Shown here one piece after another: positions 37,776 to 61,291 of a stretch of DNA of 64,000 bases. The position numbers and the translations under genes were made by a program. The notes under the pieces are model-generated. The model had not been told where the DNA came from. It did not search any database and saw only the letters and a list, made by a program, of their open reading frames with translations. Numbering within the stretch: position 1 is the stretch's first letter; each line of letters begins with the position of its first letter. The stretch comes from Mesoterricola silvestris (GTDB taxonomy: Bacteria > Acidobacteriota > Holophagae > Holophagales > Holophagaceae), in contig NZ_AP027080.1 of assembly GCF_030295405.1 (NCBI RefSeq), positions 1,240,001 to 1,304,000 on the forward strand, written 5' to 3'.

Positions 37776-39358
37776 TCCCGGACCCGCAGCGGGTCGGCCC
37801 AGGGCCCGTCGTACAGGAACCTGCGGGCGGTGAGGGTCTTCACGAACTTGCCGAAGCGCACATCCACGCCGCCGAAGACGGACAGGACGGCGCAGCCCGC
37901 GGGGGGCCGGTACGCGTCGGCCACGGGGGCGCCGGGGGCGATGGGGCGGGTGCGGGTCTCCCCGGGCTCCCAGCCCTTGTGGGGGGAGAAGGCGTAGCGC
38001 AGGCCGCCGTCCACCTTGAAGGGGCCGGTGGGGCCCAGGCGGAAGGTGACGGGCACCTCCCGGGCGCCCCGGAGGCCGTCCACGCCGGTGGCGAGCTCCA
38101 GGCGGGGCCATTCCACGGGATCCTTGCCGGTGAGCACCACGAGGGTCTCCCACTTGAGGACCCGGCCCGCGGCGTCCAGGGCCTCCACCACCAGCTCCCG
38201 GTCCGTGAGGCCCTCCCCGGGGAAGCGCACCTCCCCCGTGGCGCGGCCCCGGGCGTCGGGCACGGCCTCCAGCAGGACCCGGTCCCGGAACACCACCCGG
38301 ATTCGCTTCACCGCGGGCTGGCAGTGGGCCTCCAGGGGCACGGTCTCCCGGTAGAAGGCGTGGTTCCGGGGGGAGGCCACCAGGGCCAGGTTGTACTGGG
38401 CCAGGGCGTACCAGGCGGGGCGGGGGTGGCCGGCGGCGTCCTTGAGGGAGCCGAAGCCCAGCATGCCGAACCATTCCTCCGCCTCGTCGTCGTGCACGGC
38501 GGGATTGCCGGCCTTCCACCAGCCGTCCGCGTAGTAGAAGGGGCACAGGCCCGTGCCGCCGGCGTCCAGGAAATCCCGGTAGTACCGGGTCATGGCCTCG
38601 GCCTGCTGGCCCAGGGTGTTGCCGCCGTAGAGGCCCTCGCCCTTGCGGGACACGGAGCGGCCGAATTCCGTCAGGAGGGCGGGCTTGCCGTCGGTGCCCG
38701 CGAGCATGCGCTGGGCCTCGGCGAAGCCGTGGGTGAAGTTGGCGCTGTCCCGGTAGTCGTAGGCGTTGCGCCCCCGCACGTCGAAGAGCCCCATGTCCAC
38801 CCATTCGGTGATGGCGGCATTGCCCGAGATCGTCACGGGCACCCCGGGGTGCAGCTCGTGGATGAGCGCCGTGGCGCGGGCCCACAGGTCCCGGGTGGCC
38901 GCGGCGCCCACCTTGCGGATGTGCTCGGGCATGGGCTCGTTCATGATGAGGTACGTGATCACGCAGTCGTAGGCGCGGGTGTAGGCCAGGGTGGAGCGGA
39001 TGAGCTCCAGGTCCCGGGCCGCCACGGCGGGGTCGGCGAAGTCCTCGTCGGGCTTGAGCCAGATGCCGAACACGATCTTGAGGCCGGAGGCCTGCACCAC
39101 TTTCAGCTCGGGTTCCGACATCTGGGACCAGGTGCGGATGGCGTTGAAGCCCGCGGCCTTGATGAGCTCCAGGTCCCGGCGCACCTGGTCCAGGTCCCTT
39201 CCGCGGGTCTCGTAGGGGGCCTCCCCGGGGCGGGCCCCGCTCTCGTAGCCCAGGGCGTTCACCAGGAAGCGGTGGCCGTCCAGGTGGTACCAGCCGTCCT
39301 TCAGTTCCAGTCCGGCCGCGGCGCAGGGCAGGGCCAGGGCAAGCAGGAGCCTTCGCAT
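37772..39358 (-). CDS. Clan GH-A glycosidase (GH2/GH5-like TIM barrel)
   Basis: A 528-residue secreted protein with signal peptide RRLLLALALPCAAAG. The barrel begins with LDGHRFLVNALGYES and IKAAGFNAIRTW. The acid/base Glu is in VITYLIMNEPMPEH and the likely nucleophile Glu in PALLTEFGRSVS. A C-terminal beta-rich domain of about 170 residues follows. The layout resembles GH2-type catalytic domains without the usual N-terminal sandwich; exact family assignment needs a profile search. It sits between the GH16 lipoprotein (8 bp) and GH30 (4-bp overlap), so it is part of the beta-glucan operon. Confidence 0.82.
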   Translation of the reverse strand: MRRLLLALALPCAAAGLELKDGWYHLDGHRFLVNALGYESGARPGEAPYETRGRDLDQVRRDLELIKAAGFNAIRTWSQMSEPELKVVQASGLKIVFGIWLKPDEDFADPAVAARDLELIRSTLAYTRAYDCVITYLIMNEPMPEHIRKVGAAATRDLWARATALIHELHPGVPVTISGNAAITEWVDMGLFDVRGRNAYDYRDSANFTHGFAEAQRMLAGTDGKPALLTEFGRSVSRKGEGLYGGNTLGQQAEAMTRYYRDFLDAGGTGLCPFYYADGWWKAGNPAVHDDEAEEWFGMLGFGSLKDAAGHPRPAWYALAQYNLALVASPRNHAFYRETVPLEAHCQPAVKRIRVVFRDRVLLEAVPDARGRATGEVRFPGEGLTDRELVVEALDAAGRVLKWETLVVLTGKDPVEWPRLELATGVDGLRGAREVPVTFRLGPTGPFKVDGGLRYAFSPHKGWEPGETRTRPIAPGAPVADAYRPPAGCAVLSVFGGVDVRFGKFVKTLTARRFLYDGPWADPLRVRE

Positions 39359-39366
39359 GGCGCCTC

Positions 39367-40209
39367 CTAGGAGCGGCGGTAGACCCGCACGTAGTCCACG
39401 TACATCTTCTGGGGCCAGGTGGTCGAGCCGGTGGGGCTCCCGGGCCAGTTGCCGCCCACGGCGACGTTCAGGATGAGGAAGAAGGGGTGGTCGAAGACCC
39501 ACAGGCCGCCGCTGGGCAGATCCGCGGCGGCCCGGGTGGAGAAGAGCACGTCGTCCAGGTAGAACCGGATCTGGGTGCCCTCCCATTCCACGGCGTAGAG
39601 GTGGTAGTCGTCGGACAACTTGCCCGAGGCGAGGACCTTGCTCGCCGTGAGGCCGTTGGCGCCGGAATAGCCGGGGCCGTGCAGGGTGCTCCAGAGGGTG
39701 GAGGGCTGGCTGCCCACCACTTCCATGACGTCGATCTCGCCGCAGTTGGGCCAGCCGTTGGTGGCCACGTCGGTGCCCAGCATCCAGAAGGCGGGCCAGA
39801 TGCCCGGACCGGTGGGGACCTTGATGCGGGCCTCGAAGCGGCCGCTGGACTGGGAGAAGAGGCCCTGGGTCTTGAGCCGGGCGGAGGTGTAGTTGCGGGT
39901 GATGCCGTCGGCGCCGGTGAAGGTTTCGGCCTGGGCGGTGACCACCAGGTTGCCGGACTGGATCTGGGCGTTGGCGGGGCGGCTGGTGTAGGTCTCCAGC
40001 TCGTTGTTGCCCCATCCGTTGCCGCCGGTGTCAAAGGCCCACTTGGCGGCGTCGGGGGCGCTGCCGTCGGCGCCGCTGAATTCGTCGCTCCAGCTCAGCA
40101 CCCAGGTGCCGCTGGGCTTGGGGGGCGTGCCGCCGTTGGAGGAGGAGCCGCCGCCGCAGCCCAGCAGGAGGGTGGCGAGGGCGAAGGGAAGGGCCGTGAG
40201 GGTCTTCAT
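39367..40209 (-). CDS. GH16-family beta-glucanase lipoprotein (laminarinase-like)
   Basis: A 280-residue lipoprotein with signal LPFALATLLLGCGGG (lipobox Cys18) and a short Ser/Gly/Pro linker. The GH16 jelly roll contains WSDEFSGADGS, the catalytic motif GEIDVMEVVG (nucleophile and acid/base Glu flanking the central Asp) and LNVAVGGNWPG. The motif with an extra residue (EIDxxE) is the laminarinase/beta-1,3-glucanase subtype. Surface or periplasmic anchoring fits an enzyme that makes oligosaccharides for the TonB receptor of the divergent operon. It is the first enzyme gene after the XylR-type regulator. Confidence 0.94.
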   Translation of the reverse strand: MKTLTALPFALATLLLGCGGGSSSNGGTPPKPSGTWVLSWSDEFSGADGSAPDAAKWAFDTGGNGWGNNELETYTSRPANAQIQSGNLVVTAQAETFTGADGITRNYTSARLKTQGLFSQSSGRFEARIKVPTGPGIWPAFWMLGTDVATNGWPNCGEIDVMEVVGSQPSTLWSTLHGPGYSGANGLTASKVLASGKLSDDYHLYAVEWEGTQIRFYLDDVLFSTRAAADLPSGGLWVFDHPFFLILNVAVGGNWPGSPTGSTTWPQKMYVDYVRVYRRS

Positions 40210-40313: not shown

Positions 40314-41492
40314 TCAGCGGGGGGCGTGGGCGGCCCGGTACTGGGTGGGGGTGCTGCCGCTCTCCCGCTTGAAGAAGCGGCAGAAGTAGGTGGCGGACTG
40401 GAAGCCGCAGGCCTCGGCCACCTCGTCCAGGGTGGCGGAGGTGTTCTCCAGGAGCCGCATGGCGGTGCCCAGGCGCACGCGCACCATCTCCCCGGCGATG
40501 GAGCGGCCCAGGTTCTTGCGGAAGAGCCCATCCAGGGTGGACCGGGAGCAGCCGGCCAATTCGCACACCTGCTCCACGGAAACGCCCCGGCAGGCCCGGT
40601 CCCGGATCACCCGGGAGGCGGCCAGCACCAGGGGGTTCTCCGCCGTGGTGACGTCCGTGGATTCCCGCTCCACCACCCGCAGGGGGGGCTGCTTGTACAG
40701 CCGGGCCTCCACCGGTTCCCCGTCCAGGATGCTGGTGAGGAGCCGCCCCGCCAGGAGGCCGATGCCTTCGGTGTCCGGGGCGATGCTGGTGAGGGTGGGG
40801 CGGCAGAGCCGGCAGAGGATTTCGTCGTTGTCCACGCCCATGACCGACACGTCGCCGGGCATGGCGATGCCCAGGTCCCGGCAGGCGGTGATGAGCTGCT
40901 GGCCCCGGGTGTCGTTGCAGGCGAGGATGGCCACGGGCTTGGGGAGGCGGGCCAGCCAGGCCGCCAGGTTCGGTTCGTACTCCAGGCCCCGCATTTCCCG
41001 GAACTGCTGGCGGATGGCGCTGGAGACCTTGGGGGGCGGTTCGTACACGTGGGGGGTGAGGCCCCGTTCCCGCACCAGGGCGGTGAAGGCTTCGGAGCGC
41101 CGGTCGGAGAAGAACACGCCGGGGTAGCCGCAGAAGGCGAAGTGATTGAAGCCGGCCTTGGTGAAGAACTCGTCGGCCAGGGCGGCCACGACCCCGGGGT
41201 CGGTGTCGATCCAGGGGTAGTCGGGGCAGTTGCCCTCGCCCTGCACGTCCACGAGGGGCACCCCCAGGGAGGTGATCTGCCGGCCCAGGTCCGCGGTGGA
41301 GATGAAGCCGATGATGCCGTCGATGTGGCCCTTCTTGAGCCAGTGGGGGAGCTTCATGAACTCCGCCCGTTCATAGGGGAAGATGAGCCAATTGTCCTGT
41401 TCCAGGGCGTAGCTGGCCACGCCCCGGCAGATGCCGCGGCTGTAGCCGCCGGAGGCGGGGACGAGGAGGGCGATGTGACGGATCCTGGCCAT
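40314..41492 (-). CDS. XylR-type regulator: LacI-like sugar sensor with C-terminal AraC HTH
   Basis: The 392-residue protein starts with a periplasmic-binding-protein-like ligand domain (residues 1-280; IALLVPASGGYSRGICRGV, DGIIGFIST, ILACNDTRGQQLI, VMGVDNDEILC). It ends with two AraC-type helix-turn-helix motifs (SVEQVCELAGCSRSTLDGLF and TLDEVAEACGFQSATYFCRFFK). This is the XylR/rhamnose-type activator layout that lacks the N-terminal LacI HTH. It lies between the divergent halves of the beta-glucan locus, so an oligosaccharide or glucose-derived inducer is likely. ATG 41492 follows AAAGGA; the frame continues upstream without a good site. Confidence 0.93.
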   Translation of the reverse strand: MARIRHIALLVPASGGYSRGICRGVASYALEQDNWLIFPYERAEFMKLPHWLKKGHIDGIIGFISTADLGRQITSLGVPLVDVQGEGNCPDYPWIDTDPGVVAALADEFFTKAGFNHFAFCGYPGVFFSDRRSEAFTALVRERGLTPHVYEPPPKVSSAIRQQFREMRGLEYEPNLAAWLARLPKPVAILACNDTRGQQLITACRDLGIAMPGDVSVMGVDNDEILCRLCRPTLTSIAPDTEGIGLLAGRLLTSILDGEPVEARLYKQPPLRVVERESTDVTTAENPLVLAASRVIRDRACRGVSVEQVCELAGCSRSTLDGLFRKNLGRSIAGEMVRVRLGTAMRLLENTSATLDEVAEACGFQSATYFCRFFKRESGSTPTQYRAAHAPR

Positions 41493-41534
41493 CGTATGTC
41501 CTTTCTTGCCTCGGACGCGTGGGGGAAAGGGGCG

Positions 41535-41548
41535 GAAAAGCGCTTGCA
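41535..41548. promoter_or_regulatory. LacI/cre-like palindromic site in the divergent sugar promoter
   Basis: GAAAAGCGCTTGCA contains the perfect palindrome AAGCGCTT and matches 12 of 14 positions of the cre/LacI-type consensus TGWAANCGNTNWCA. It lies in the 273-bp divergent region between the XylR-type regulator and the binding lipoprotein. The same region has repeated TTTCCGAAAGG/TATCCGAAA (41575-41595) and an AT-rich TATGAT (41618-41623) that could be a -10 element for the plus-strand operon. The XylR-type protein has AraC DNA-binding helices, so this site may serve another regulator. Confidence 0.4.
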
Positions 41549-41765
41549 TCACGGGCGACAAGGGGCTGGGGAGGTTTCCGAAAGGTTATCCGAAAAAATA
41601 AAAAAAGACCATTTACTTATGATTTCTAATAACTCAACCTTCTCAAGTCCTCTTTGAGTCCATCTGCCCCAACGGTCCCCGAACCCGGATTCCGCATCCG
41701 GTTCCGGCGCGCCCCTCCAGACCTGTGTCAGGATGAAACTAATTCTTCTAAAAAAAGGAGATATC

Positions 41766-44700
41766 ATGTCAACCCCACGACTCCGGGCGAGCTTCGCGCT
41801 GCTGGCGTTGATGCCCCTGATCTGGCTGCTGGCCTGCTCCAGCTCCCACAAGGGGGGCCGTGACCTGACCTTCCTGTCCGTGGCGCCCACCCATGTGGCC
41901 CTCTTCCCCGGGGAGACGGCCCAGTTGGGGGTCACCGCCCACTACAGCGACGGCACCACCGAAGCGGTGACCTCCGGCACCACCTTCGAGGCCGCCGCCC
42001 CCGCCGTGGCCACCATCAGCGCCTCCGGCCGCATCACGGCGGTGGCCGCGGGCACCAGCACCGTCTCCGCCCACCTGGGCGACAAGAGCGCCGACGCCGT
42101 CATCGACGTGGCGCCGGCCTTCTTCCCGGTGTTCACGGACGCCTATCCCAAGGGCGTCACCTTCGTGCCCTTCGGGGGCTCCACCAACGCCGTGGCCCCC
42201 GACGCCGCCCAGCCCCACGCGGGCGCGGCCTCCCTGCGCATCGACGTGCCGTCCTCGGGCTACACCGGCGGGGCCCTCAAGGCCGCCGCGGTCCAGAACC
42301 TCTCGCTGTACAACGCCGTCACCTTCTGGGTGAAGGCCAGCAAGAGCGCCACCCTGAACGTGGCGGGCCTGGGCAACGACGGGGTCAATTCCGACTGGTC
42401 CGCCGAAGTGGCCAACCTTCCCCTGACCACCTCCTGGGTCAAGCAGGTCATCCCCCTTCCCGACAAGGCCAAGCTCACCGCCACCGCCGGGCTCTTCCAC
42501 TTCGCGGAAGGCTCCGACGAAGGCGCCTACAGCATCTGGATCGACGACATCCGCTACGAGAACCTGCCCGCGGCCGAACTGGCCGCCCCCACCGCCGCCA
42601 CCATCGCCTGGGCCCCCACCAGCGTGGAGATCTCCAAGTCCAGGTCCCTGGGGCTCACCGGCACCATCACCTATGCCACCCCCGCCGTCACCGTGAGCAA
42701 CGCCAGCCTGCGCTGGTTCACCCTGGCCTCCGCGACGCCCGCCGTGGCCACCGTGGACGGCAGCGGCCTGGTTTCGGGCCTCACCCTGGGCACCTCGGAA
42801 ATCACCGCCACCCTGGGCGGCCTGGCCGTGCCCGGGTCCGGCACCGTCACCGTCATCACCCCCATCGTGCCCACCACGGCGCCGGCCCGGCCCACGGTGG
42901 ATCCCTCCAAGGTCATCTCCCTGCTTTCCAAGGCCTACACCAACATTCCCGTGGACACCTGGGGCACCAGCTGGAGCAACGGCAACGCGGGCCCCAACCT
43001 CACCAGCCTCACCATCGGCGGGGACGACGTCAAGAAGTACACCAACCTCGCCTACGTGGGCGTGGAGTTCTACGCCGCCGGCAACGCCGTCGACGCCACC
43101 AGCATGACCTACCTCCACGTGGACGTGTGGACCCCCGACATCACCGACTTCCACGTCAAGCTGGTGGACTTCGGCGCCAACACCGTCTACGGCGGCGGCG
43201 ACGACTCGGAATCGGAAGTGGCGGTGAACGCCACCACCACCCCCGCCCTCAACGCCACCAAGCAGTGGGTGTCCCTGGACATCCCCATGGCCAGCTTCGG
43301 CAACCTGGCCAGCCGCAGGCACCTCGCCCAGCTCCTGTTCATCGGCGCCACCCCCTCGGGCACGGGCACCGTCTACGTGGACAACGTCTTCTTCCACAAT
43401 TCCCCCTTCATCGATTCCGTGCCGCCCACCCTGGCCATCACCGATGACGTGGCGGCCCCCACCGCCTACGGCCCGGTGACCTTCACCTTCACCTTCAGCG
43501 AGGACGTGGGCTCCAGCTTCCTGGACTCCGCCGTCACCGTCACCGGCGGCACCGCCGGCCCCCTCACCAAGGTCAGCGGCACCACCTACACCCTCACGGT
43601 GACCCCGCCCGCCACCACCGCCGGCACGATCACGGTCAATGTCCCGGCCGGAACCTACTCCGACCTGGCGGGCAACGCCGGCACCACGGCCGCCACCCGG
43701 TCCCAGGACTACGACACCCGGGTCATCATGCGCCAGATGGACCTGCCGCTGGTCACCTTCGACGCGGGCAACGTGGCCTACGGCTTCACGGACTTCGGCG
43801 GCGTCACCTCGTCCCTCGCGGCCGATCCCGTGACCGCGACCAACAAGGTGGCGAAGGTCGTCAAGCCCACCACCGCCCAGTTCTGGGGCGGGACCACCCT
43901 CTCGGCCAACGGCACCCTGGGCTTCCTCCACGCCATCCCCTTCGATGCCGCCCACACCCGCATGACCGTGCGCGTCTATTCCCCCGAAGCCGGCACCCCG
44001 GTGCGCCTCAAGGTGGAGGACCACGCCAACGGCACCGTGGCCTGCGAGACCGAAGTGAACACGACGGTCGCCAACGCCTGGGAGACCCTCACCTTCGACT
44101 TCGCCACCCCCGCCAGCGGCACGCCCGCGCTGGACTTCGCCAAGACCTACGACAAGGCCTCGATCTTCTTCAACTTCATGCACGGCGTGGGCGGCACCGC
44201 CCTGGGCGCCGACGCCACCTACTACTTCGACGACGTGGCCTTCGACCACTTCACGACCCTCACCTTCGACAACCCCGCCCTCGCATACACCCTGGTTGGG
44301 TTCGGGGGCGCCGAGGATTCCACGGTGGCCACCGATCCCGCCAGCAGCGCCAACAAGGTGGTGAAGGTCGTCAAGGCCGCCGGCGCCCAGACCTGGGCCG
44401 GCACCACCTTCGCCCTGGGCGCCTCCAACCTGGCGCTGTCCCGGATCCCCCTGGGCCACGGCACCACCCGGATCCTGGTGCGCACCTACTCCCCCGACGC
44501 GGGCGCCAAGGTCAAGCTCAAGGTGGAGAACGCCGCCGACGGCACCCTCTCCTGCGAGACCGACGCCACCACCACCGTCGCCAACGCCTGGGAGACCCTG
44601 GTCTTCGACTTCGCCACTCCCTCCAGCGGCACCGCGGCCCTCAACGCCACCACCGTCTACAACAAGGCCTCGATCTTCTTCGACTTCGGCAATGCCGGCA

Positions 44701-45221
44701 CCGGCAAGACCTACTACTTCGACGACGTCACCTTCGACGCCTTCGAGGGGCCGGTCACCTTCGACAACTTCCTGGCCACCTACGTCCTCACCGGCTTCGG
44801 CGGCGACGAGGGGGCCACGGTGGAAGCGGATCCCGCGGGCGGCTCCAACCTGGCCGCCAAGGTGACCAAGATCGCCGGCGCCCAGACCTGGGCGGGGGTG
44901 ACCGTCTCCACCGGGGCCAACTTCTCCATCGGCCGCATCCCCTTCTCCGCCGCGGGGCTCAACAAGTTCACCCTGCGCGTCTATTCCCCGGCCGCGGGAA
45001 CCCCGGTGCTCCTGAAGGTGGAGGACCAGGGCAACGGCACGGTCTCCTGCGAGAAGCAGGCCACGACCACCGGCGCCGGCGCCTGGGAGACCCTGACCTT
45101 CGATTTCACGGGCCTCTTCGACGCCACCAAGACCTACGACAAGGTTTCCATCTTCCCCGGCTTCGGAGCCGCGGGCACGGGCACCGTCACCTACCTGGAC
45201 GACCTGGCCTTCCTGCCCTGA
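41766..45221 (+). CDS. Large surface lipoprotein with Ig-like and three repeated carbohydrate-binding-like domains
   Basis: The 1151-residue protein has lipobox MPLIWLLACSS and no catalytic motif. In order: a Big2 Ig-like domain (about 35-115), a beta-sandwich ending YSIWIDDIRYE (about 120-265), a second Big2 domain (about 275-365), another beta-sandwich ending GTVYVDNVFFHN (about 380-550), a bacterial Ig-like domain (about 555-655), and three tandem repeats of about 155-165 residues starting near 659, 829 and 996. Each repeat opens with VTFD-like and FGG motifs and ends YYFDDV-like. This looks like a glucan-capturing surface protein, analogous in role to SusE/F. It has a strong AAAAGGAGAT site. 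Confidence 0.85.
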   Translation: MSTPRLRASFALLALMPLIWLLACSSSHKGGRDLTFLSVAPTHVALFPGETAQLGVTAHYSDGTTEAVTSGTTFEAAAPAVATISASGRITAVAAGTSTVSAHLGDKSADAVIDVAPAFFPVFTDAYPKGVTFVPFGGSTNAVAPDAAQPHAGAASLRIDVPSSGYTGGALKAAAVQNLSLYNAVTFWVKASKSATLNVAGLGNDGVNSDWSAEVANLPLTTSWVKQVIPLPDKAKLTATAGLFHFAEGSDEGAYSIWIDDIRYENLPAAELAAPTAATIAWAPTSVEISKSRSLGLTGTITYATPAVTVSNASLRWFTLASATPAVATVDGSGLVSGLTLGTSEITATLGGLAVPGSGTVTVITPIVPTTAPARPTVDPSKVISLLSKAYTNIPVDTWGTSWSNGNAGPNLTSLTIGGDDVKKYTNLAYVGVEFYAAGNAVDATSMTYLHVDVWTPDITDFHVKLVDFGANTVYGGGDDSESEVAVNATTTPALNATKQWVSLDIPMASFGNLASRRHLAQLLFIGATPSGTGTVYVDNVFFHNSPFIDSVPPTLAITDDVAAPTAYGPVTFTFTFSEDVGSSFLDSAVTVTGGTAGPLTKVSGTTYTLTVTPPATTAGTITVNVPAGTYSDLAGNAGTTAATRSQDYDTRVIMRQMDLPLVTFDAGNVAYGFTDFGGVTSSLAADPVTATNKVAKVVKPTTAQFWGGTTLSANGTLGFLHAIPFDAAHTRMTVRVYSPEAGTPVRLKVEDHANGTVACETEVNTTVANAWETLTFDFATPASGTPALDFAKTYDKASIFFNFMHGVGGTALGADATYYFDDVAFDHFTTLTFDNPALAYTLVGFGGAEDSTVATDPASSANKVVKVVKAAGAQTWAGTTFALGASNLALSRIPLGHGTTRILVRTYSPDAGAKVKLKVENAADGTLSCETDATTTVANAWETLVFDFATPSSGTAALNATTVYNKASIFFDFGNAGTGKTYYFDDVTFDAFEGPVTFDNFLATYVLTGFGGDEGATVEADPAGGSNLAAKVTKIAGAQTWAGVTVSTGANFSIGRIPFSAAGLNKFTLRVYSPAAGTPVLLKVEDQGNGTVSCEKQATTTGAGAWETLTFDFTGLFDATKTYDKVSIFPGFGAAGTGTVTYLDDLAFLP

Positions 45222-45312: not shown

Positions 45313-46080
45313 ATGATTGGAGCAAAACACCTGGTTCGCGGGGGACTGGCCCTGTGCCTCTGCGGCGCGCTGGCCCCTCTTCGCGCCCAGGAGACCGGTT
45401 TCTCCAAGAGCTTCAAGTTCCGGTTCGGCATCGCCGGAAAGCAGCAGGACCACCTGCGGGCCCCCTACAGCGGCCTGGGCTTCAACGTGGGCTACGGCGT
45501 CGGCCCCGGCACCGTGGGCCTGGAGATCGGATACATCTACAAGACCGGCGACGACTACTTCACCGTCCCGGACGATTCCAGGCTGGACCCGGCCCTGCTG
45601 CCCATGAATCCCGCCAAGGCGGTGGAATCCAAGCGCAACGAATTCGCCGGGCTCACGTTCCGGGCTTCGTACAGCCAGGCCCTCAACACCGCCTGGCGCT
45701 GGCAGGCGGGGCTCCAGTTCGGCGGCAGCTTCAAGCACCAGTACGTGGGTGACGCCCAGAGCGCCCCCTGGGACGTGGCGTCGGGCGACAAGGCCTGGCG
45801 CGATTTCTACCTGGGCTCCACCCGGAAGGCGAAGTACGTGCCCTCCCCCTACGCGGGCCTGGTGTGGAAGGCCGACAAGGACTCCAGCGTCGAGTTCAAC
45901 GTGGTGCTGCTCAGCTACTCGGCCATGGAATACCACCACTACGCGGGTTCGGCCTCCGCCTACGACTCCGGCGCGCCGGGGCGCCGCTCCAACCCCGGCG
46001 CCGCGTGGCCCATGGACGCGCTCACCAGCCGGAACCGGATGGTGCCCCATGCCGAAGTCGCCTATGTGTTCCATTTCTAG
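45313..46080 (+). CDS. Putative outer-membrane beta-barrel protein
   Basis: The 255-residue protein has a signal peptide ending PLRAQ and many amphipathic strands (GLGFNVGYGVGPGTVGLEIGY, AGLTFRASYSQAL). A typical barrel C-terminus with terminal Phe (HAEVAYVFHF) ends it. No specific family is recognised. It lies between the binding lipoprotein and the TonB receptor, 27 bp before the latter, and is presumably co-expressed with the glucan uptake apparatus. Confidence 0.75.
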   Translation: MIGAKHLVRGGLALCLCGALAPLRAQETGFSKSFKFRFGIAGKQQDHLRAPYSGLGFNVGYGVGPGTVGLEIGYIYKTGDDYFTVPDDSRLDPALLPMNPAKAVESKRNEFAGLTFRASYSQALNTAWRWQAGLQFGGSFKHQYVGDAQSAPWDVASGDKAWRDFYLGSTRKAKYVPSPYAGLVWKADKDSSVEFNVVLLSYSAMEYHHYAGSASAYDSGAPGRRSNPGAAWPMDALTSRNRMVPHAEVAYVFHF

Positions 46081-46107: not shown

Positions 46108-49100
46108 ATGACCATGCGCAATTTGCTGTTTCGCTCCAGCGTCGCGGTGATGCTCACCGGGGGCGCGGGCCTGATGGCCCAGACCACCACCGGCGCCCTC
46201 AGCGGCGTGCTCACGGACGAGGCCGGCCAGCCCCTCCGGGGCGCCCGGGTCGCCCTGGAAAGCCCGGCCCTGTTCCAGACCAAGGTCTTCACCACGGACG
46301 CCAAGGGCGAGTACCACGCCCTCCTCCTGCCCGTGGGCAACTACACCATCAAGGTGAGCGCGGCCGGCATGATCGGGCGCACGGCCAAGAACGTCCGGGT
46401 GGGCCTGGGCTCCAACCAGACCCTGAATTTCGCCCTCAAGGCCGTGCAGGCCGCCTCGGCCACCGTGGAGGTGGTGGGCACCTCCGCCGCCGCCGAGGCC
46501 AAGACCAGCGACAAGATCTCGGTGAACTACTCCGCCGACCAGCTGCTGAAGATGCCCGTGTCCATGCAGGGCTTCGACGCCATCACCAACATCGCCCCGG
46601 GCATCTCCGGCTACGGCAAGGAAGCCCGGGTGCGCGGTTCCGACATGAACCAGATCCTCTACAGCATCGACGGCATCAACGTCAAGGACGACACGGGCAC
46701 CTATTCCTCCCTCTACGCGCCCCTGCCGGACAGCATCGAGGACGTGCAGGTGGTGACCTCGGGCCTGAACGCCCGCAACGGGCTCGTGAGCGGCGGCCAG
46801 GTGAACATCGTCACGAAGACCGGGTCCAACGCTTTCGAGGGCACCATCCGGGCCAACATGAGCCGGGCCTCCATGGCTGCGGATTTCCCCCTCACCAACG
46901 CCAACAATAACTCCAACCTCCTGCGGGAGGACCTGACCCACACCACCGATTTCACCTTCAGCGGCCCCATCATCAAGGACCGGCTGTGGTTCACCCTCGG
47001 CACCCGGGTCACCCCCAGCCAGGCCACCTCGGGCCTGCTGGGCTACACCGTGGTGGGCGTCAAGGCCGGCCAGCCCAACATCCCCTGGGGCCAGGTGCAG
47101 AGCCTGCTGCGGCCCATGGCCACCTACGGCCTCAACAAGAACGTGGACGACGTCATCAACACCGGCCCCGGCGGCAACTACGGCAACACCGCCGAGGACG
47201 CGGGAACCAAGCTCAGCTCCTCCATCAAGTTCCAGAAGTTCGAAGGCAAGCTCACCGGCCTGGTCTCGGCGAACCATTCCCTCAGCGCCACCTTCCTGGA
47301 GGAGAAGACCACCCAGGGCGGGGTCCAGGGCCAGCGCAACACGGACCCCTGGGAGGGGAACATCCTGCGGGGCATCGGCGACATGGTCACCGAGACCCGG
47401 GCCTGGACCCTGGGCTGGAACGGCATGCTGGCCTCCAACTGGTCGGTGGAGGCCCGCACCACCTACGCCGCCAATACGTTCAACGACGTGAAGAACCCCA
47501 ACCCGGGCGTTTCGGTGTCGGGCTACTTCGCCAGCCCCGACCCGGCCATGCTCCTGCGGGGCGAGAGCGGGCCCCACTCCTGGCTGGGCAGCCCCGACAG
47601 CTACGACTACGGCCCGCTGCTCACCAACATGTCCACCTACGACGTGAGCCCCCTGAAGAAGGGCAACAGCACCTGGTCCCTCAACGTCAAGACCCTCCAG
47701 AGCTTCCTGGGCAGCCACGACATCGACCTGGGCGCCGAGAGCGTGGCCAGCCTCTACAATTTCGGGCGGTCCAAGTACGGCAACCGGGGCGTGTTCACGG
47801 GCGGCTGGTACCGGGATTCCGTCACGGGCAAGTACCTCTACCCCACCTTCCACCGGGGCGAGGCGGGCTCGGACCCCACCGAGATCCTCCAGATGGGCCC
47901 CGGCGAGAACCCGGTGGCCAACGGCTGGAACGCCTGGGCCAACATGCCCAACGGCCTTGGAACCCAGGCCCCCTTCCTCCACTGGGAGGCCATCCGCGGC
48001 CCCAGCGCCCACATGGAGAAGTTCTACGACAATCCCGGCGATTCCAAGAACCGGACCACCTCCGTCTACGTCAACGACAACTGGACCGTCAACAACTTCC
48101 TGAACGTCATGGTGGGCGCGCGCTACAACAAGCTCACCATGCAGGACCAGGGGGGCAACAGGCTCGACGACATGAACGTGTTCGAGCCCCGCCTCCTGGT
48201 GAAGTTCAACCCCGACGGCGGCAACCGGGAGGTGTGGTCCTTCTCGGCCGCCAAGCTGGCCTCGGCCTATTCGGACGCGGTGGCCAACAACTTCCGCGGC
48301 AACGCCTGGGAGGTGCGCACCGTCCACCTGTGGAACGGGGCGAACCTGGACGGGGGCCAGCCCGGCTTCGACACCAGCGCCGCCTTCGGCGACGCGCCCA
48401 CGGGCCTCCACAACGGCTACACGTACACCGGCCAGAACATGAACGGCGTGCGGTTCGTGGACTACGACACCCTGATCGACCCCAAGAACTACGGCCCCGC
48501 CTACGACATGCTGGACGCGCGCCAGACCTACATCGCCAAGGGCCTGCGCGCCCCCTACGCCTACGAGTTCAGCGTGGGCTACCAGCGCAACTACGAGACC
48601 GGCTACTTCAAGGCCAACGCCATCCGCCGGGTCTACAAGGACAGCATCGTCAGCTCCATCCACGACTACGGCATGGATTCCATGGTCCACATGGTCAGCC
48701 CGGACCCCAACGACCCCCTGCGCATGTGGAAGCAGAAGACCTCCTGGCTCAATTCCAAGTTCGACCGGATCTACTCGGGCCTGGAGATCGCCTTCCAGAA
48801 GCAGCTCAGCTCCCGCTGGAGCCTCATCGGGTCCTACACCTACGACCAGTCCACGGGCACCAACGACCTGGACTACTACAACTACAAGACCCTGCGCGAG
48901 AAGCTCCTCAGCCCCGAGCAGCAGGAGCGGGCCGTGGGCAAGGGCCTCCTGAGCCGCAACCAGATCGCCCACGTGTTCCTCACCTACACCCACCCCGTGG
49001 GCAAGGGCAACGTCTCCTTCTCCCTCAAGGGCGACACCTGGACGGGCGGCGTCATCCAGGCCCAGGGCTGGACCGACTACCGGTCCCTGGCGGGCTTTTC

Positions 49101-49533
49101 CGCCCTGCAGCTGCCCGGGGGCATCAACGGCGAGCGGGTCATCGACGTGGACCAGCGCACCTCCAACTGGCAGACCTACTTCCCCACCTACTACGGGGAC
49201 ATGGGCGCATTCAAGACCGGCGTGGACTACTACCAGGTGGGGGCCAAGGTACAGTGGGACATCCCCCTGGGCCTGGGCAAGGTGCGCCTCATCGGCTTCG
49301 TGTCAATCGACAACATCTTCAACCACTTCGTCATGACCAACGTGTACGGCTACTTCACGGGGGATTCCCCCAGCTCCACCGTCAACGTGGCCCCCGGGAG
49401 CCCCATGGCGCTGTTCAATGGCAACCGCTTCTACGGCCAGACCCCGGGCGACGCGGGCGCCAAGTACGGCGACTACAACCAGGGCTACGGCGGCCGGAAG
49501 GTGGGCGATTTCAGCATCGGGCTCAAGTTCTAG
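46108..49533 (+). CDS. Oar-like TonB-dependent receptor with CarboxypepD_reg domain (glucan locus)
   Basis: A 1141-residue outer-membrane transporter. The signal peptide ends GLMAQ. The N-terminal carboxypeptidase-regulatory-like domain (about 25-110; GALSGVLTDEAGQPLRGARV) is followed by the plug (about 125-240; RVRGSDMNQILYSIDGINV, VVTSGLNARNGLVSGGQVNI). A large barrel ends in VGDFSIGLKF with terminal Phe. This architecture replaces SusC in Acidobacteriota. Its position among glucan enzymes suggests it imports beta-glucan oligosaccharides with TonB energy. There is no SusD homologue; the multi-domain lipoprotein two genes upstream may take that role. Confidence 0.93.
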   Translation: MTMRNLLFRSSVAVMLTGGAGLMAQTTTGALSGVLTDEAGQPLRGARVALESPALFQTKVFTTDAKGEYHALLLPVGNYTIKVSAAGMIGRTAKNVRVGLGSNQTLNFALKAVQAASATVEVVGTSAAAEAKTSDKISVNYSADQLLKMPVSMQGFDAITNIAPGISGYGKEARVRGSDMNQILYSIDGINVKDDTGTYSSLYAPLPDSIEDVQVVTSGLNARNGLVSGGQVNIVTKTGSNAFEGTIRANMSRASMAADFPLTNANNNSNLLREDLTHTTDFTFSGPIIKDRLWFTLGTRVTPSQATSGLLGYTVVGVKAGQPNIPWGQVQSLLRPMATYGLNKNVDDVINTGPGGNYGNTAEDAGTKLSSSIKFQKFEGKLTGLVSANHSLSATFLEEKTTQGGVQGQRNTDPWEGNILRGIGDMVTETRAWTLGWNGMLASNWSVEARTTYAANTFNDVKNPNPGVSVSGYFASPDPAMLLRGESGPHSWLGSPDSYDYGPLLTNMSTYDVSPLKKGNSTWSLNVKTLQSFLGSHDIDLGAESVASLYNFGRSKYGNRGVFTGGWYRDSVTGKYLYPTFHRGEAGSDPTEILQMGPGENPVANGWNAWANMPNGLGTQAPFLHWEAIRGPSAHMEKFYDNPGDSKNRTTSVYVNDNWTVNNFLNVMVGARYNKLTMQDQGGNRLDDMNVFEPRLLVKFNPDGGNREVWSFSAAKLASAYSDAVANNFRGNAWEVRTVHLWNGANLDGGQPGFDTSAAFGDAPTGLHNGYTYTGQNMNGVRFVDYDTLIDPKNYGPAYDMLDARQTYIAKGLRAPYAYEFSVGYQRNYETGYFKANAIRRVYKDSIVSSIHDYGMDSMVHMVSPDPNDPLRMWKQKTSWLNSKFDRIYSGLEIAFQKQLSSRWSLIGSYTYDQSTGTNDLDYYNYKTLREKLLSPEQQERAVGKGLLSRNQIAHVFLTYTHPVGKGNVSFSLKGDTWTGGVIQAQGWTDYRSLAGFSALQLPGGINGERVIDVDQRTSNWQTYFPTYYGDMGAFKTGVDYYQVGAKVQWDIPLGLGKVRLIGFVSIDNIFNHFVMTNVYGYFTGDSPSSTVNVAPGSPMALFNGNRFYGQTPGDAGAKYGDYNQGYGGRKVGDFSIGLKF

Positions 49534-49557
49534 GCGACCAACGACATGGAGAATGCC

Positions 49558-50145
49558 ATGAAACACCTCCGCAGCATCCTGATGGGCCTCCTGGCGCTTC
49601 CCCTGGCCGCCGGCAACCCCGGCTTTTCCGCCGGTGGCGGCGTGATCCTGGGCCTGGACAGCTACAAGAAGGCCGTGAACAGCACCACCGGCTTCATGAT
49701 CAACGCCGGATGGGAGACCACCCTGGCCAAGACCGACGTGCCCGTGCGCGTCGCCCTGAACCTGGGCACCATGCCCGGCAAGGCCCTGAACGGCCTCAAG
49801 ACCTCCCTGACCCTGGCCCAGCTCTCCGGGGACCTGCTCCTGGACACGGGCGTGCCCCGGCTCCGGGGGGTCTTCGGGCTTTCCCTGAACAGCTACAAGG
49901 CCTCCTTCAGCGGGGACGAGAGCCCGGCCATCTTCGACGCCGAGCACCACTTCCCCTTCCACGACTGCAAGGGGCTCAAGGGGGGCCTCCGGGCGGGGCT
50001 GGAGTACGCCCTCACGTCCCGGGTCACGGTGGAGGCCCTGCTCCAGGCCACGGAACTGGCCGGACGCCAGCGCAACGACGCCCTGATCCGCCAGGGGGCC
50101 ATCAATCCCGCATGGCTTCAGCTCGGCGCCCGCTATCAGTTCTGA
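49558..50145 (+). CDS. Small putative outer-membrane or periplasmic beta-rich protein
   Basis: About 195 residues with a signal peptide (HLRSILMGLLALPLAAG). Strand-like segments (FSAGGGVILGL, GFMINAGWETTL, LLDTGVPRLRGVFGLSLN) lead to a C-terminal aromatic strand LQLGARYQF, consistent with a small barrel. No family is recognised. ATG 49558 has GGAG at a good distance; ATG 49546 is also in frame. It is tightly placed between the TonB receptor (24 bp) and the symporter (13 bp), so it is very likely in the same operon. Confidence 0.75.
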   Translation: MKHLRSILMGLLALPLAAGNPGFSAGGGVILGLDSYKKAVNSTTGFMINAGWETTLAKTDVPVRVALNLGTMPGKALNGLKTSLTLAQLSGDLLLDTGVPRLRGVFGLSLNSYKASFSGDESPAIFDAEHHFPFHDCKGLKGGLRAGLEYALTSRVTVEALLQATELAGRQRNDALIRQGAINPAWLQLGARYQF

Positions 50146-50158: not shown

Positions 50159-51616
50159 GTGACCACGACCCCCATGAACGAGGAAGCCGGCCGGCTCGGA
50201 TTCGCCGAGAAGGCCGGCTACGCCCTCGGCGACGCCGCCTCCAACTTCTACTGGAAGACCTTCGAGTTCTTCATCATCTTCTTCTACACCGACATCTTCG
50301 GCATCTCCGCGGGGACCGTCGGCACCATGATGCTGGTGACCCGGGTGGTGGACGCCGTGGCGGACCCCGTCATGGGCACCCTCGCGGACCGCACCCGCAC
50401 CCGGTGGGGGCACTTCCGCCCCTACCTGGTGTGGTTCGGCCTGCCCTTGGCGGCCGCGGGCGTCCTCACCTTCACCACGCCCGCCCTGGGCCAGGGCGCC
50501 AAGGTGGTGTACGCCTACGTCACCTACTGCCTCCTCATGCTGCTCTACACGGCCGTGAACATCCCCTACAGCGCGCTCATGGGGGTCATGACGCCCAACA
50601 GCAAGGAGCGCACGTCCCTGGCCTCCTTCCGGTTCGTGGGGGCATTCTCGGTGGCGGTGCTGGTGCAGTACTGCACCCCCAGCCTGGCCCAGTGGTTCGG
50701 CATGGCGCCCGCCCTGCGGGCCCAGCACAGCCTGCTGGCCCACCCCGGGGCGTGGATCCGGTGGTTCCTCTCCAAGGACTTCCTGGCCCTGCCTTCGGAC
50801 CTGGCCCGGGGCTGGCAGCTGACCATGGGCCTCTACGGCCTGATCGCGGTGGCCCTCTTCGCCCTGTGCTTCCTGGCCACCCGGGAGCGGGTGGCGCCCC
50901 CCGCGGGGCAGGATCCCGATCTCCGGGGCGATTTCAGGGCCCTCATGGGCAGCCGGGCCTTCGTGGTGATGATCGTGGTGGCCGTGGCCATGATCAGCGC
51001 GTTCGTCCTCAAGGGGTCGGTGTCGGCCTACTACTTCAAGTACTACGTGCACCGCAACGACCTGCTGGGCCCCTTCCTGGTGAGCAACGCCCTGGCCTTC
51101 CTGGCCGCGGTGATGCTGGCCCCGCCCGTGGCCCGGAGGTTCGACAAGAAGGTGATCTTCATGGCGGCCATCGGCGTGGGCGGCGCGATCATCCTGGGCT
51201 TCTGGTTCGCCGGGCCCGGGGACATCGCCTGGATCTTCGCCCTGCAGATCCTCTCCAGCTTCGTGATCGGGTTCAATTCGCCCCTGCTCTGGGCCATGTT
51301 CGCCGACACCGCCGACGACGCCGAATGGCGCTCGGGGCGGCGCAACACCGGGCTGGTCTTCGCCTCGGCCATCTTCGGCACCAAGATCGGCCTGGCCGTG
51401 GGGGCCTGGATCACGGGCATCCTCCTCACCTGGTTCGGCTACGTGGCCAACGTGGACCAGACCGCGCGCTCCCTGGTGGGCATCCGGCTCTCCATGAGCC
51501 TCTTCCCCGGGGCGCTGCTCATCCTCTCCGCCCTGCTCATGAAACTCTATCCCCTCGACGACCGCATGATGGTGCGGATCGAGAAGGACCTCAAGGACCG
51601 CAAGTCCCAAGCCTGA
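50159..51616 (+). CDS. GPH (MelB-like) sugar:cation symporter
   Basis: A 485-residue inner-membrane transporter with about 12 hydrophobic helices. Glycoside-pentoside-hexuronide family motifs are visible: EKAGYALGDAASNFYWKT near the N-terminus, RVVDAVADPVMGTLADRTRTRWGHFRPY after helix 2, and DTADDAEWRSGRRNTG in the second half. It would move the oligosaccharides from periplasm to cytoplasm with Na+ or H+. GTG start at 50159. Its position between the receptor and GH17 supports a glucan-derived substrate; the exact sugar is not readable from sequence. Confidence 0.93.
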   Translation: MTTTPMNEEAGRLGFAEKAGYALGDAASNFYWKTFEFFIIFFYTDIFGISAGTVGTMMLVTRVVDAVADPVMGTLADRTRTRWGHFRPYLVWFGLPLAAAGVLTFTTPALGQGAKVVYAYVTYCLLMLLYTAVNIPYSALMGVMTPNSKERTSLASFRFVGAFSVAVLVQYCTPSLAQWFGMAPALRAQHSLLAHPGAWIRWFLSKDFLALPSDLARGWQLTMGLYGLIAVALFALCFLATRERVAPPAGQDPDLRGDFRALMGSRAFVVMIVVAVAMISAFVLKGSVSAYYFKYYVHRNDLLGPFLVSNALAFLAAVMLAPPVARRFDKKVIFMAAIGVGGAIILGFWFAGPGDIAWIFALQILSSFVIGFNSPLLWAMFADTADDAEWRSGRRNTGLVFASAIFGTKIGLAVGAWITGILLTWFGYVANVDQTARSLVGIRLSMSLFPGALLILSALLMKLYPLDDRMMVRIEKDLKDRKSQA

Positions 51617-51617: not shown

Positions 51618-52589
51618 ATGCGAATGCGTACTATCCTCTCCTTGTGCCTCGCCCTTTCCGTATCCCTGGGCGCGGGCGAACCCGATCTTGCCCGGCAGGC
51701 CTTCTGGGGCGACGCCGTGTGCTATTCCGGATACCGGGAAGGGCAGGACCCCGACAAGGGCCTCTACCCAACCCCCGCCCAGGTGATGGAGGATCTGCGC
51801 ATCCTCGACCGCAAATGGAAGGTCATCCGCCTCTACGGCTCGGACCGCCACGCCGCGGACGTGCTGGAGGCCATCCGGGCCGGAAAGCTGGGGCTGCGGG
51901 TCATGCTGGGCATGTGGCTCAGCGGAAAGCCCGGCAAGGCTCCGGAGAACGAGCGCCAGGTGGCCGAGGGCATCCGCCTGGCCCGGGCCTACCCGGACGT
52001 GGTGGTGGCCGTGAGCGTGGGCAACGAGGCCCTGGTGGAATGGTCGGACCACAGGCTCACCGAGCCCGAGGTCATCGCCTTCGTGGACCGCGTGAAGGGC
52101 GCCGTGGCCTGCCGGGTCACCGTGGCCGACGATTTCCTGTACTGGATCAGGCCCGGGAACCGCCTGGCGGAGCACCTGGACTTCATCACCCTGCACAGCT
52201 ATCCCATGTGGGGCAACCAGGACATCGACGAGGCCTTCGCCACCACCCTGGACAAGTTCGCCCAGGTGCGCCGGGCCTACCCGGGCAAGACCATCGTCTT
52301 CGGGGAGGTGGGCTGGGCCACCTTCACCCAGGGCCCCAAGCACGCCCCCCGGGCGGGAAGCGAGGCCAAGCAGAAGCGCTACTTCGAGGAGATGAGCGCC
52401 TGGGCCCGGTCCCTGGGGGTGACGACGTTCATCTTCGAGGCCTTCGACGAGCCCTGGAAGGGCACGGGGACGGAAGGCCACTGGGGGCTCTTCTCCGTGG
52501 GCCGCAAGGCCAAGCCGGCCGTGCTGGGCTGGTTCCCGGAGCTGCGCCCGGAGGGGCCCACCTCCCCCGCCTACGGGGACCGCCCATGA
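51618..52589 (+). CDS. GH17-family beta-1,3-glucan-active enzyme
   Basis: A 323-residue protein with an N-terminal signal (LSLCLALSVSLGAG) and the GH17 barrel. YSGYREGQDPD is the substrate-binding start. The acid/base Glu is in VVAVSVGNEALVEW, and the nucleophile Glu in TIVFGEVGWAT. FIFEAFDEPWKG and HWGLFSVGRKAKPA form the conserved end. Bacterial GH17 enzymes act as beta-1,3-glucanases or glucanosyltransferases. It follows the symporter by 1 bp and overlaps the GH94-like gene by ATGA, so it is part of the glucan operon. It acts in the periplasm. Confidence 0.92.
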   Translation: MRMRTILSLCLALSVSLGAGEPDLARQAFWGDAVCYSGYREGQDPDKGLYPTPAQVMEDLRILDRKWKVIRLYGSDRHAADVLEAIRAGKLGLRVMLGMWLSGKPGKAPENERQVAEGIRLARAYPDVVVAVSVGNEALVEWSDHRLTEPEVIAFVDRVKGAVACRVTVADDFLYWIRPGNRLAEHLDFITLHSYPMWGNQDIDEAFATTLDKFAQVRRAYPGKTIVFGEVGWATFTQGPKHAPRAGSEAKQKRYFEEMSAWARSLGVTTFIFEAFDEPWKGTGTEGHWGLFSVGRKAKPAVLGWFPELRPEGPTSPAYGDRP

Positions 52590-55500
52590 CCGCCACCTGC
52601 GTTTCCCGCATCCCCCTGGTCCCCGCGGCCCCCGACGTGGACGGCGGCATCGTGGACTTCGACGGAGAGCGCTGGTTCCGGGTCTCGGGCCTGGACGGCA
52701 TGCCGCCCTTCTTCATGAGCGTGGTGAGCGACTCCGACCACTGGCTGTTCCTCTCCAGCAACGGCGCGCTCACCGCGGGCCGGCGGGACCCGGACCACGC
52801 CCTCTTCCCCTACCACGCCGACGACCGCATCCACGACAGCCTGGAGCACACCGGCGGCAAGACCCTGGTGCGGGTGGCCCGGGAGGGCGGCGCCTGCCTC
52901 TGGGAGCCCTTCTCGGACCGCTACCAGGGCCTGTACCGCATCCGGCGGGATCTCCTCAAGAGCGTCCGCGGCAACAAGATCGTCTTCGAGGAGCGCAACG
53001 AGGACCTGGGCCTGGCCTTCCGGGTGGCCTGGATGACCAGCCACCGCTTCGGCTTCGTGCGCCGCAGCGAGCTGGTGAACCTCGGGTCCGGCCGGGTGGA
53101 GGCGGAGGTGCTGGACGGCCTCCAGAACGTCCTGCCCGCGGGCCTGGGCTGGCGCTTCCAGCTGGAGTTCAGCACCCTGTGCGACGGGTACAAGCGCACC
53201 GAGCTGCTCGCGGACACGGGCCTGGCCCTCTTCCGCCTCAGTTCCATCCCCGCCGACCGCCCCGAGCCCAGCGAGGCCCTGCGGGTGAACACGGCCTGGT
53301 CCCTGGGCCTGGATTCGCCGGGCCATCTCCTCTCCTCCCCGGGCATCGCCGCCTTCCGCCGGGGCGAGGCCCCGGCGGAGGAGACCGACGTGCGCGGGCG
53401 GCGCGGCGCCTACCTCGTGAACGGGGCCCTGGCCCTGGAACCGGGGGCTTCCCGGGAGTGGTTCGTGGTGGCCGACGTGGCCCTGGACGCCGTGGCGGTG
53501 GTCGCCCTGCGGACGCGGCTGGCCGGGGGCGGGGACCTGCGCGCCGAGCTCCTGGAGGACATCGAACGGGGCACCCGGGGCCTCCTGGAGAGGGTGGCCG
53601 GGGCCGACGGCCTCCAGGCCGGCGAGGACGAGCGCAGCGCGAGCCGCCACTTCTCCAACACCCTCTTCAACATCATGAGGGGCGGCATGCCCGGCCTGGG
53701 CACCCGCATCCCCCGGGACGATTTCCGGCTCTTCGTGTCCCGGTCCAACCGGGACCTGGCCGCGCGCCACGGGGCCCTCCTGGCGGCGCTGGAGGAGGCC
53801 CCCTCCCGCGGGGCCTTCACGGCGGCCCTGGCCGCCACCGGCGATCCCGACCTGGAGCGCCTGGGGCGGGAGTACCTCCCCCTCACCTTCAGCCGGCGCC
53901 ACGGCGACCCCAGCCGGCCCTGGAACATCTTCTCCATCCAGGTGCGGGAGCCCGGCGGCGCCCAGATCTACAACTACCAGGGCAACTGGCGGGACATCTT
54001 CCAGAACTGGGAGGCCCTGGGCTTCAGCTACCCCACCTTCCTGGAGGCCATGATCGCCAAGTTCCTGGGGGGGTCCACCGCGGACGGGCACAACCCCTAC
54101 CGGGTGCTCCGGGAGGGCTTCGAGTGGGAGACCCTGGATCCCCACGATCCCTGGTCCTTCATCGGCTACTGGGGGGATCACCAGGTGGTGTACCTGCTGC
54201 GGCTCATGGAGGCCTCCGAACGGACCTACCCCGGCGCCCTGGCGCCGCTCCTGGACCGGCGGATCTTCGGGTACGCGGACGTGCCCTACCGCATCAAGCC
54301 CTTCGACGAGCTCCTGGCGGATCCCCACCGGACCATCGAATTCGACGCCGAGGCCCATCACCGCATCCTGGCCCGGGCCGAGGCCCTGGGCGCCGACGGC
54401 AAGCTGCTCCAGGGGCCCGGCGGGCCCGTGCGGGCGGGGCTGGCCGAGAAGCTCCTGGTGGTGGCCCTGGCCAAGCTCTCCAACTTCATCCCCGGCGCCG
54501 GCATCTGGATGAACACCCAGCGGCCCGAATGGAACGACGCCAACAACGCCCTGGTGGGCTACGGCGTCTCCCTGGTGACCCTCTGCCACCTGAGGCGGTT
54601 CCTGGCCTTCTGCGACGGCCTCCTGGAACGGGACGCGCCGGTGGCGGAGGAGGTGGCGGCCTGGTTCGGGGGGATCGCCGCGGCCCTGGCCTCGGCCTCC
54701 CCGGAGGCGGCCGACACCGTCTCCGGCCGGCGGGCCCTGCTGGAGGCCCTGGGCCGCGCCGGGTCCTCGTACCGGAAGGACCTCTACGCCCGGGGGCGCT
54801 CGGGGCGGCTGGCCACGATCCCGGCCTCGGCCCTGCGGGCCTTCTTCGCGGGGGCCCTGGGCCACCTGGACCACGCCATCCGCGCCAACCGCCGGGACGA
54901 CGGCCTCTACCACGCCTACAACCTCATGGGCCTGGAGGAGGGCGACATCTCCATCCGCCGCCTGCAGCCGATGCTGGAAGGGCAGGTGGCCGCCCTGAGC
55001 GCGGGCATCCTCGCCCCCGCCGAGGCCGCGGACCTGCTGGACGCCCTGCGGCGCAGCCCCCTGCGCCGGGAGGACGTGGGCAGCTACCTGCTGTATCCCG
55101 ACCGGGAGCTGCCCCGGTTCCTGGAGAAGAACCTCCTCCCGGAGGACGCCCCCGCGCGGATCCCGCTGCTGGGCGCCCTGGTGGAGGCCGGGGACACCTC
55201 CATCGTGGTGCGGGACGTGCTGGGCAGGCTGCACTTCAACGCCGACTTCCGCAGCCGGAGGCCCCTGGAGGCCGCCCTGGACGCCCTGGGAGGTCCGGCC
55301 GAGGCCTGCCGCGGCGAGGTGCTGGCGCTGTACGAGGCCGTCTTCGACCACCGGTCCTTCACGGGGCGCTCCGGCACCTTCTACAAGTACGAGGGCCTGG
55401 GCTGCGTCTACTGGCACATGGTGTCCAAGCTCCTGCTGGCCGCGGACGAGGCCCGGCGCGCGACCCCGCCGGAGGACCCCGCCTTCCCCCGGCTCCAGCG

Positions 55501-55990
55501 CCACTGCCGGGAGATCCGGGAGGGGCTGGGCGTGCACCGGAGCCCCGCGCAGGTGGGCGCCATCCCCATCGACCCCTACTCCCACACCCCGGCCCAGGGC
55601 GGCGCCCAGCAGCCCGGCATGACGGGCCAGGTGAAGGAGGACTTCCTCTCCCGTTTCGGGGATCTGGGGGTGCAGGTGGAGGCGGGGCGCATCGCGTTCC
55701 ATCCCGCGTGGGTCCCCGGTGAGGAGTTCCTGACCCGGCGCGGGGCCTTCACCTACGTTGACCTTGCGGGCCGCACCCGGACCCTGGACCTGGAACCGGG
55801 ATCCCTGGCCTACACCCTCTGCCAGGTGCCCGTGGTGGCCACACGCTCCGGGGCTCCGTCCCTGCGGGCGCTCCTGACGGACGGGTCCTGCCGGACCTTC
55901 CCCGGCCTTTCCCTGGACCTCCCCACCAGCCGGGCCCTCTTCGACCGGACTGGAGAGATCGAGCGCATCGAAGTGGTGCTGGGCTCCTAG
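52586..55990 (+). CDS. Large cytoplasmic GH94-like protein, candidate beta-1,3-glucan oligosaccharide phosphorylase
   Basis: The 1134-residue protein has no signal peptide. An N-terminal beta-sandwich-like part (VSDSDHWLFLSSNGALTAGRR in pieces; DHWLFLSSNGALTAG, FPYHADDRIHDSLEH) is followed by an (alpha/alpha)6-type region. That region has NYQGNWRDIFQNWEALGFSY, PWSFIGYWGDHQVVYLLRL, PEWNDANNALVGYGVSL and FYKYEGLGCVYWHMVSKLL. Asp651 in EWNDANN matches the position and context of the catalytic Asp of GH94 phosphorylases (DWND). Size, GH17/GH16/GH30 neighbours and cytoplasmic location fit GH149 or GH161 beta-1,3-glucan phosphorylases. This is inference; a glycosidase or new family remains possible. 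Confidence 0.7.
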   Translation: MTATCVSRIPLVPAAPDVDGGIVDFDGERWFRVSGLDGMPPFFMSVVSDSDHWLFLSSNGALTAGRRDPDHALFPYHADDRIHDSLEHTGGKTLVRVAREGGACLWEPFSDRYQGLYRIRRDLLKSVRGNKIVFEERNEDLGLAFRVAWMTSHRFGFVRRSELVNLGSGRVEAEVLDGLQNVLPAGLGWRFQLEFSTLCDGYKRTELLADTGLALFRLSSIPADRPEPSEALRVNTAWSLGLDSPGHLLSSPGIAAFRRGEAPAEETDVRGRRGAYLVNGALALEPGASREWFVVADVALDAVAVVALRTRLAGGGDLRAELLEDIERGTRGLLERVAGADGLQAGEDERSASRHFSNTLFNIMRGGMPGLGTRIPRDDFRLFVSRSNRDLAARHGALLAALEEAPSRGAFTAALAATGDPDLERLGREYLPLTFSRRHGDPSRPWNIFSIQVREPGGAQIYNYQGNWRDIFQNWEALGFSYPTFLEAMIAKFLGGSTADGHNPYRVLREGFEWETLDPHDPWSFIGYWGDHQVVYLLRLMEASERTYPGALAPLLDRRIFGYADVPYRIKPFDELLADPHRTIEFDAEAHHRILARAEALGADGKLLQGPGGPVRAGLAEKLLVVALAKLSNFIPGAGIWMNTQRPEWNDANNALVGYGVSLVTLCHLRRFLAFCDGLLERDAPVAEEVAAWFGGIAAALASASPEAADTVSGRRALLEALGRAGSSYRKDLYARGRSGRLATIPASALRAFFAGALGHLDHAIRANRRDDGLYHAYNLMGLEEGDISIRRLQPMLEGQVAALSAGILAPAEAADLLDALRRSPLRREDVGSYLLYPDRELPRFLEKNLLPEDAPARIPLLGALVEAGDTSIVVRDVLGRLHFNADFRSRRPLEAALDALGGPAEACRGEVLALYEAVFDHRSFTGRSGTFYKYEGLGCVYWHMVSKLLLAADEARRATPPEDPAFPRLQRHCREIREGLGVHRSPAQVGAIPIDPYSHTPAQGGAQQPGMTGQVKEDFLSRFGDLGVQVEAGRIAFHPAWVPGEEFLTRRGAFTYVDLAGRTRTLDLEPGSLAYTLCQVPVVATRSGAPSLRALLTDGSCRTFPGLSLDLPTSRALFDRTGEIERIEVVLGS

Positions 55991-56884: not shown

Positions 56885-57098
56885 GTCCCTCCCGGGACGA
56901 GGATGCGGCCTCCTGGTTCATCCGGATGTGGCGCGTGCGCACAAATCGTTGTATTTGAATATTTGAAGGCATTTTTTCGATTCTTAAAAGTTCACAATCA
57001 ATTCTCTTGATTTCTTCTTGATGGAGGTGTAGCCCACCCCTGACCATGGATACCAACCAAGGGAAAACCAACCCAACCCGATCCCCAGGAGGAATCCC

Positions 57099-60083: not shown

Positions 60084-60099
60084 CCCTTCCATCCCCATC

Positions 60100-60131
60100 G
60101 GCCTGCCCGGAACCCCGGGCAGGCCCCTTTT
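60100..60131 (+). terminator. Intrinsic terminator after the second TonB receptor
   Basis: A perfect 11-bp stem, GGCCTGCCCGG-AACC-CCGGGCAGGCC (60100-60125), is followed by CCTTTT. It lies 16 bp after the stop codon and 14 bp before the next gene, so downstream genes may depend on read-through. Confidence 0.8.
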
Positions 60132-60144
60132 CGCGAGTCGATTC

Positions 60145-61281: not shown

Positions 61282-61291
61282 GGTTCCATCC

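Follow-up and report, generated by a model that had tools for sequence, protein, structure and literature searches.

GH149 phosphorylases remove one glucose per step, from the non-reducing end. Phosphorolysis of β-1,3-gluco-oligosaccharides by GH149 enzymes gives glucose-1-phosphate and is reversible in vitro (PMC5827456), and one member, Pro_7066, was shown biochemically to be a β-1,3-glucan phosphorylase (PMC5827456, PMC6771811), with a catalytic loop W651-N652-D653, in which D653 is the predicted catalytic residue, and further active-site residues R470-D471, E951 and H959 (PMC6771811). The “Type II” GH149 clusters described in 2018 from Alteromonadales combine a TonB-dependent receptor, an extracellular GH16, a cytoplasmic GH17, a PF13347 transporter, regulators and GH149 (PMC5827456), and GH149 in laminarin polysaccharide utilisation loci was discussed again in 2026 (PMC13188888). 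Here we describe a comparable locus in a 64,000-nucleotide stretch of the Mesoterricola silvestris genome (NZ_AP027080.1, positions 1,240,001 to 1,304,000; hereafter the window), in which a protein encoded at 52586..55990 on the + strand is, with a probability we put at about 95%, a cytoplasmic GH149 β-1,3-oligoglucan phosphorylase carrying out the last step of laminarin/β-1,3-glucan utilisation.

Family membership, fold and active site

The open reading frame encodes 1134 residues before its stop, and its coordinates and length are exactly those given in an earlier note made from the sequence of the window; the size is typical, with relatives spanning 1093–1156 aa (n=89). Over residues 17–1132 the protein matches the NCBIfam equivalog model NF058639 (“1,3-beta-D-glucan phosphorylase, GH149 family”), whose curated threshold is 1150 bits, at 1427.9 bits, a full-length match that establishes family membership. 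A search of all PDB sequences places Pro_7066 first (6HQ6/6HQ8; E = 0, 1090.5 bits, residues 21–1131). The two proteins have full-length homology, domain order and all published active-site residues in common, and their alignment continues through Dom 1 and Dom 2, the two inserts specific to GH149; identity is ∼44–45%. GH161 entries come next, at 50.7 bits in three fragments. To judge from its sequence, this is an ordinary, well-conserved GH149 member.

Pfam returns no match to the protein even at E ≤ 1, because it has no model for GH149 proteins; the blank is therefore not a sign of a new family, and may explain why the earlier note could not place the protein and offered “new or GH149/GH161-type”. 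The GH149 part of that proposal stands, on NF058639 and 6HQ6. A new or unnamed family is ruled out by the NF058639 score, far above cut-off, and the full-length match to a solved GH149 structure, and GH161 membership by 50.7 bits against 1090.5 and by a structural Z-score of 36.1 against 48.8. For GH94, neither Pfam (at E ≤ 1) nor NCBIfam nor the PDB sequence scan gave a match. Elsewhere in the same genome, outside the window (C1:1043553-1045256; L096/L097), a 1116-codon open frame has two GH94 β-supersandwich matches, as in cyclic β-1,2-glucan synthases.

An AlphaFold2 model built from 33 homologues (predicted local distance difference test score, pLDDT, 88; predicted template modelling score 0.90) is closest to 6HQ8 (TM-score 0.94, Z 48.8, root-mean-square deviation 2.4, 1112 residues aligned), with GH161 next-best after the GH149 structures (Z 36.1) and a GH94 laminaribiose phosphorylase at Z 28.1, which settles in favour of GH149 the structural comparison of the three families proposed in the earlier note. 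The match to 6HQ8, with the sequence alignment through both inserts, gives a β-sandwich, helical linker, (α/α)6 and jelly-roll architecture with two insert domains, and so bears out the (α/α)6-like pattern first read from the letters.

The EWNDANN motif picked out by the earlier note is present from residue 648, with Asp at 651. Within it, the WND catalytic motif (W649, N650 and D651; 54530..54538, + strand) aligns with Pro_7066 W651/N652/D653; the donor-site RD motif (R469 and D470; 53990..53995, + strand) aligns with R470/D471, and the segment from E936 to H944 (55391..55417, + strand), with the donor-site Glu and the phosphate-recognition His, aligns with E951 and H959. The GH149 motif set of WND, RD and donor-site Glu and His is thus complete; each of these residues is invariant in 89 relatives, and near-invariant positions are departed from at only two places, G253 and S890. 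The earlier note had tied its proposal to Asp651 lying in the active-site pocket, and by alignment Asp651, the predicted catalytic residue, takes the position of Pro_7066 catalytic Asp653.

In a collection of species genomes at least 588 candidate places encode a relative, and Bacteroidota make up the majority of the best 80 of these. A tree built from 90 GH149-type sequences places the window protein with Holophagaceae sequences, on a branch that is not unusual. A sample of the phylum has a match in 11 of 297 genomes (10 above the family cut-off). The gene occurs in 4 of the 21 listed genomes of one genus (g2) and is therefore accessory there; this genus is probably Geothrix, since the GH149 protein of one of its loci (L010) is identical in sequence to that of a Geothrix locus (L013). 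GH149 genes in metagenome-assembled genomes labelled Brockarchaeota and Demequina (L014 10001-13414; L016 10001-13387) fall together with the Acidobacteriota sequences of that tree, a placement that may reflect mis-binning or transfer.

Gene content and conservation of the locus

The GH149 gene is the last in a tightly packed operon, behind genes for a GPH symporter and a GH17 enzyme, as the earlier note had it. One base pair separates the symporter and GH17 genes, and the GH17 and GH149 genes overlap by 4 bp; it is therefore very probable that the three are co-transcribed and translationally coupled. The N-terminus of the GH149 protein (MTATCVSRIPLVPAAPDVDGG), read by eye, has no evident signal peptide, in agreement with that note.

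The GH17 β-1,3-glucanase/transglycosylase (51618..52589, + strand; PF00332 above cut-off) has a signal-peptide-like N-terminal stretch, suggesting a periplasmic location, and carries the motifs GNE at E137 and GE at E230; its PDB matches include 6FCG (E 1.4e-25) and 4WTP (E 9e-20). The GPH (MelB-type) cation symporter (50159..51616, + strand), predicted to serve inner-membrane uptake, scores 380 bits with TIGR00792 against a cut-off of 231 and matches PF13347 at E 1.2e-94. Upstream lie an outer-membrane β-barrel-like protein of 199 aa (49546..50145, + strand; PF13505 just under cut-off), kept in synteny, and a TonB-dependent receptor with a CarboxypepD_reg domain (Oar-like; 46108..49533, + strand; PF13620, PF25183 and PF07715 above cut-off), 74–87% identical across the syntenic loci. 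They are preceded by a predicted outer-membrane protein of 255 aa (45313..46080, + strand), which is kept in synteny and for which Pfam and NCBIfam scans gave no match. A lipoprotein with Big and CBM-like domains (41766..45221, + strand; Big_12 and Big_2 above cut-offs, CBM_4_9 and CBM_35_2 just above, LLAC lipobox by eye) is a candidate surface glycan-binding protein; large, with repeated CBM-like domains and conserved in the locus, it is possibly of a SusD-independent kind.

On the − strand are a XylR-like regulator (Peripla_BP_3 and AraC HTH; 40314..41561; PF13377 and PF12833 above cut-off), 74–86% identical in synteny and probably beginning at a codon downstream of the listed TTG, and a GH16 lipoprotein (39367..40209; PF00722), predicted to be a laminarinase-type endo-β-1,3-glucanase and closest to enzymes of that activity (PDB 2HYK, E 2.8e-74, plus many laminarinases). 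Last is a TIM-barrel glycoside hydrolase (37772..39358, − strand), kept in synteny and matching PDB 9FZ9/9G4N (‘GH2 catalytic domain-containing’; phmmer E 9.4e-126); neither Pfam nor NCBIfam assigns it to a family above cut-off, and a literature search for 9FZ9 found no paper.

This order of ten genes is shared with a genome of the same genus (L101; 73–87% identity) and with a g2 genome (L103), and Geothrix sp. SG200 (L013) has the same order to the limit of the stretch examined; a further g2 genome (L102) retains the regulator, symporter and GH149 genes, arranged differently. That the gene set is kept, with protein identities that vary, speaks for a single functional unit. Just downstream, at 56174-62923 (+), comes what is apparently a separate unit: genes in a row encode a response regulator, a second TonB-dependent receptor with a CarboxypepD_reg domain, a protein with a thioredoxin domain and a histidine-kinase-like protein. 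The response regulator and second receptor were set aside as locus members, having no counterpart in L013 in the 10 kb past GH149; the L101 and L103 stretches reach just 1.3–2 kb past GH149 and say little on downstream genes.

Proposed role and its alternatives

The GH16 and GH17 neighbours point to β-1,3-glucan as the substrate, and the earlier note was right to see a β-glucan locus here. From this setting we infer reaction, linkage, direction and compartments as follows. External β-1,3-glucan would be cut by the lipid-anchored GH16, and the oligosaccharides captured and imported by the CBM-like lipoprotein and TonB receptor, then trimmed or remodelled by periplasmic GH17, so that short chains would enter the cytoplasm via the GPH symporter. 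There GH149 and inorganic phosphate would attack the non-reducing end, with Asp651 protonating the leaving sugar, to give α-glucose-1-phosphate and a chain shortened by one unit in a reaction that, by analogy with GH94, would be inverting. A phosphohexomutase and a glucokinase, genes for both of which the genome carries, would pass the products to glycolysis.

Several points weigh against this assignment. The activity of the 1134-aa protein is itself predicted from sequence, and the cell locations of the locus proteins rest on N-termini read by eye. The phosphohexomutase matches generic phosphoglucomutase/phosphomannomutase models, with the strict pgm equivalog cut-off not reached. The structural model has pLDDT below 50 in catalytic loops 650–652 and 928–937, so it is the alignment with the crystal structure, not the model, that puts Asp651 in the pocket.

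Among the alternatives, it seems improbable that the Holophagaceae enzymes form a GH149 subclade whose preference for chain length or linkage has shifted and which is supplied by a TonB/GPH uptake route with a periplasmic GH17. Less probable still is a different role for the GH149 protein, in synthesis of storage or wall β-1,3-glucan from glucose-1-phosphate or in phosphorolysis of mixed-linkage glucan: the genes around it, for GH16, GH17, the TonB receptor and the GPH symporter, serve uptake and degradation and are conserved together, and the GH16 is nearest to endo-β-1,3-glucanases. That the protein is a GH161 or GH94 member, or represents a fourth, as yet unnamed family of clan GH-Q phosphorylases, has almost nothing in its favour, for although the WND, RD and His motifs and (α/α)6 fold are held in common and GH161 structures are the next-best matches, it is refuted by the GH149 equivalog score, and the fall from 1090 to ∼50 bits, the drop in Z and the ordinary branch in the GH149-type tree all speak against it.

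Comparison with known systems

The protein resembles GH161 β-1,3-glucan phosphorylases (9GY9, 9QQK) in fold, catalytic-loop context and reaction type, but GH161 enzymes are smaller, share 15–18% identity with it in structural alignment and reach ∼50 bits. GH94 laminaribiose/cellobiose phosphorylases have the clan GH-Q fold and the catalytic Asp context in common with it but no sequence match, a structural Z of ∼28 or less, and none of the GH149 insert domains (PMC6771811).

A literature search found no paper connecting Holophagaceae with laminarin, and the founding GH149 paper does not mention Acidobacteriota in its main text (PMC5827456). In two papers that name acidobacteria as well as GH149, the family comes up a single time in each. 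Like the Type II clusters of that paper, the present locus combines a TonB-dependent receptor, GH16, GH17, a PF13347 transporter, a transcriptional regulator and GH149. In contrast to them, it lies in Acidobacteriota, its regulator is of XylR/AraC type rather than a histidine kinase and response regulator, its GH17 has a signal-peptide-like N-terminus, theirs being described as cytoplasmic, and it adds the CBM-like lipoprotein and outer-membrane proteins. Its gene content is already known as a Type II cluster, and what it looks to add is placement in Acidobacteriota/Holophagaceae and a layout with a seemingly periplasmic GH17. The kind of enzyme is known and no concept is changed; the comparison describes a putative phosphorolytic β-1,3-glucan locus conserved in some Holophagaceae, with a GH149 protein that is a candidate enzyme variant for β-1,3-glucan synthesis.
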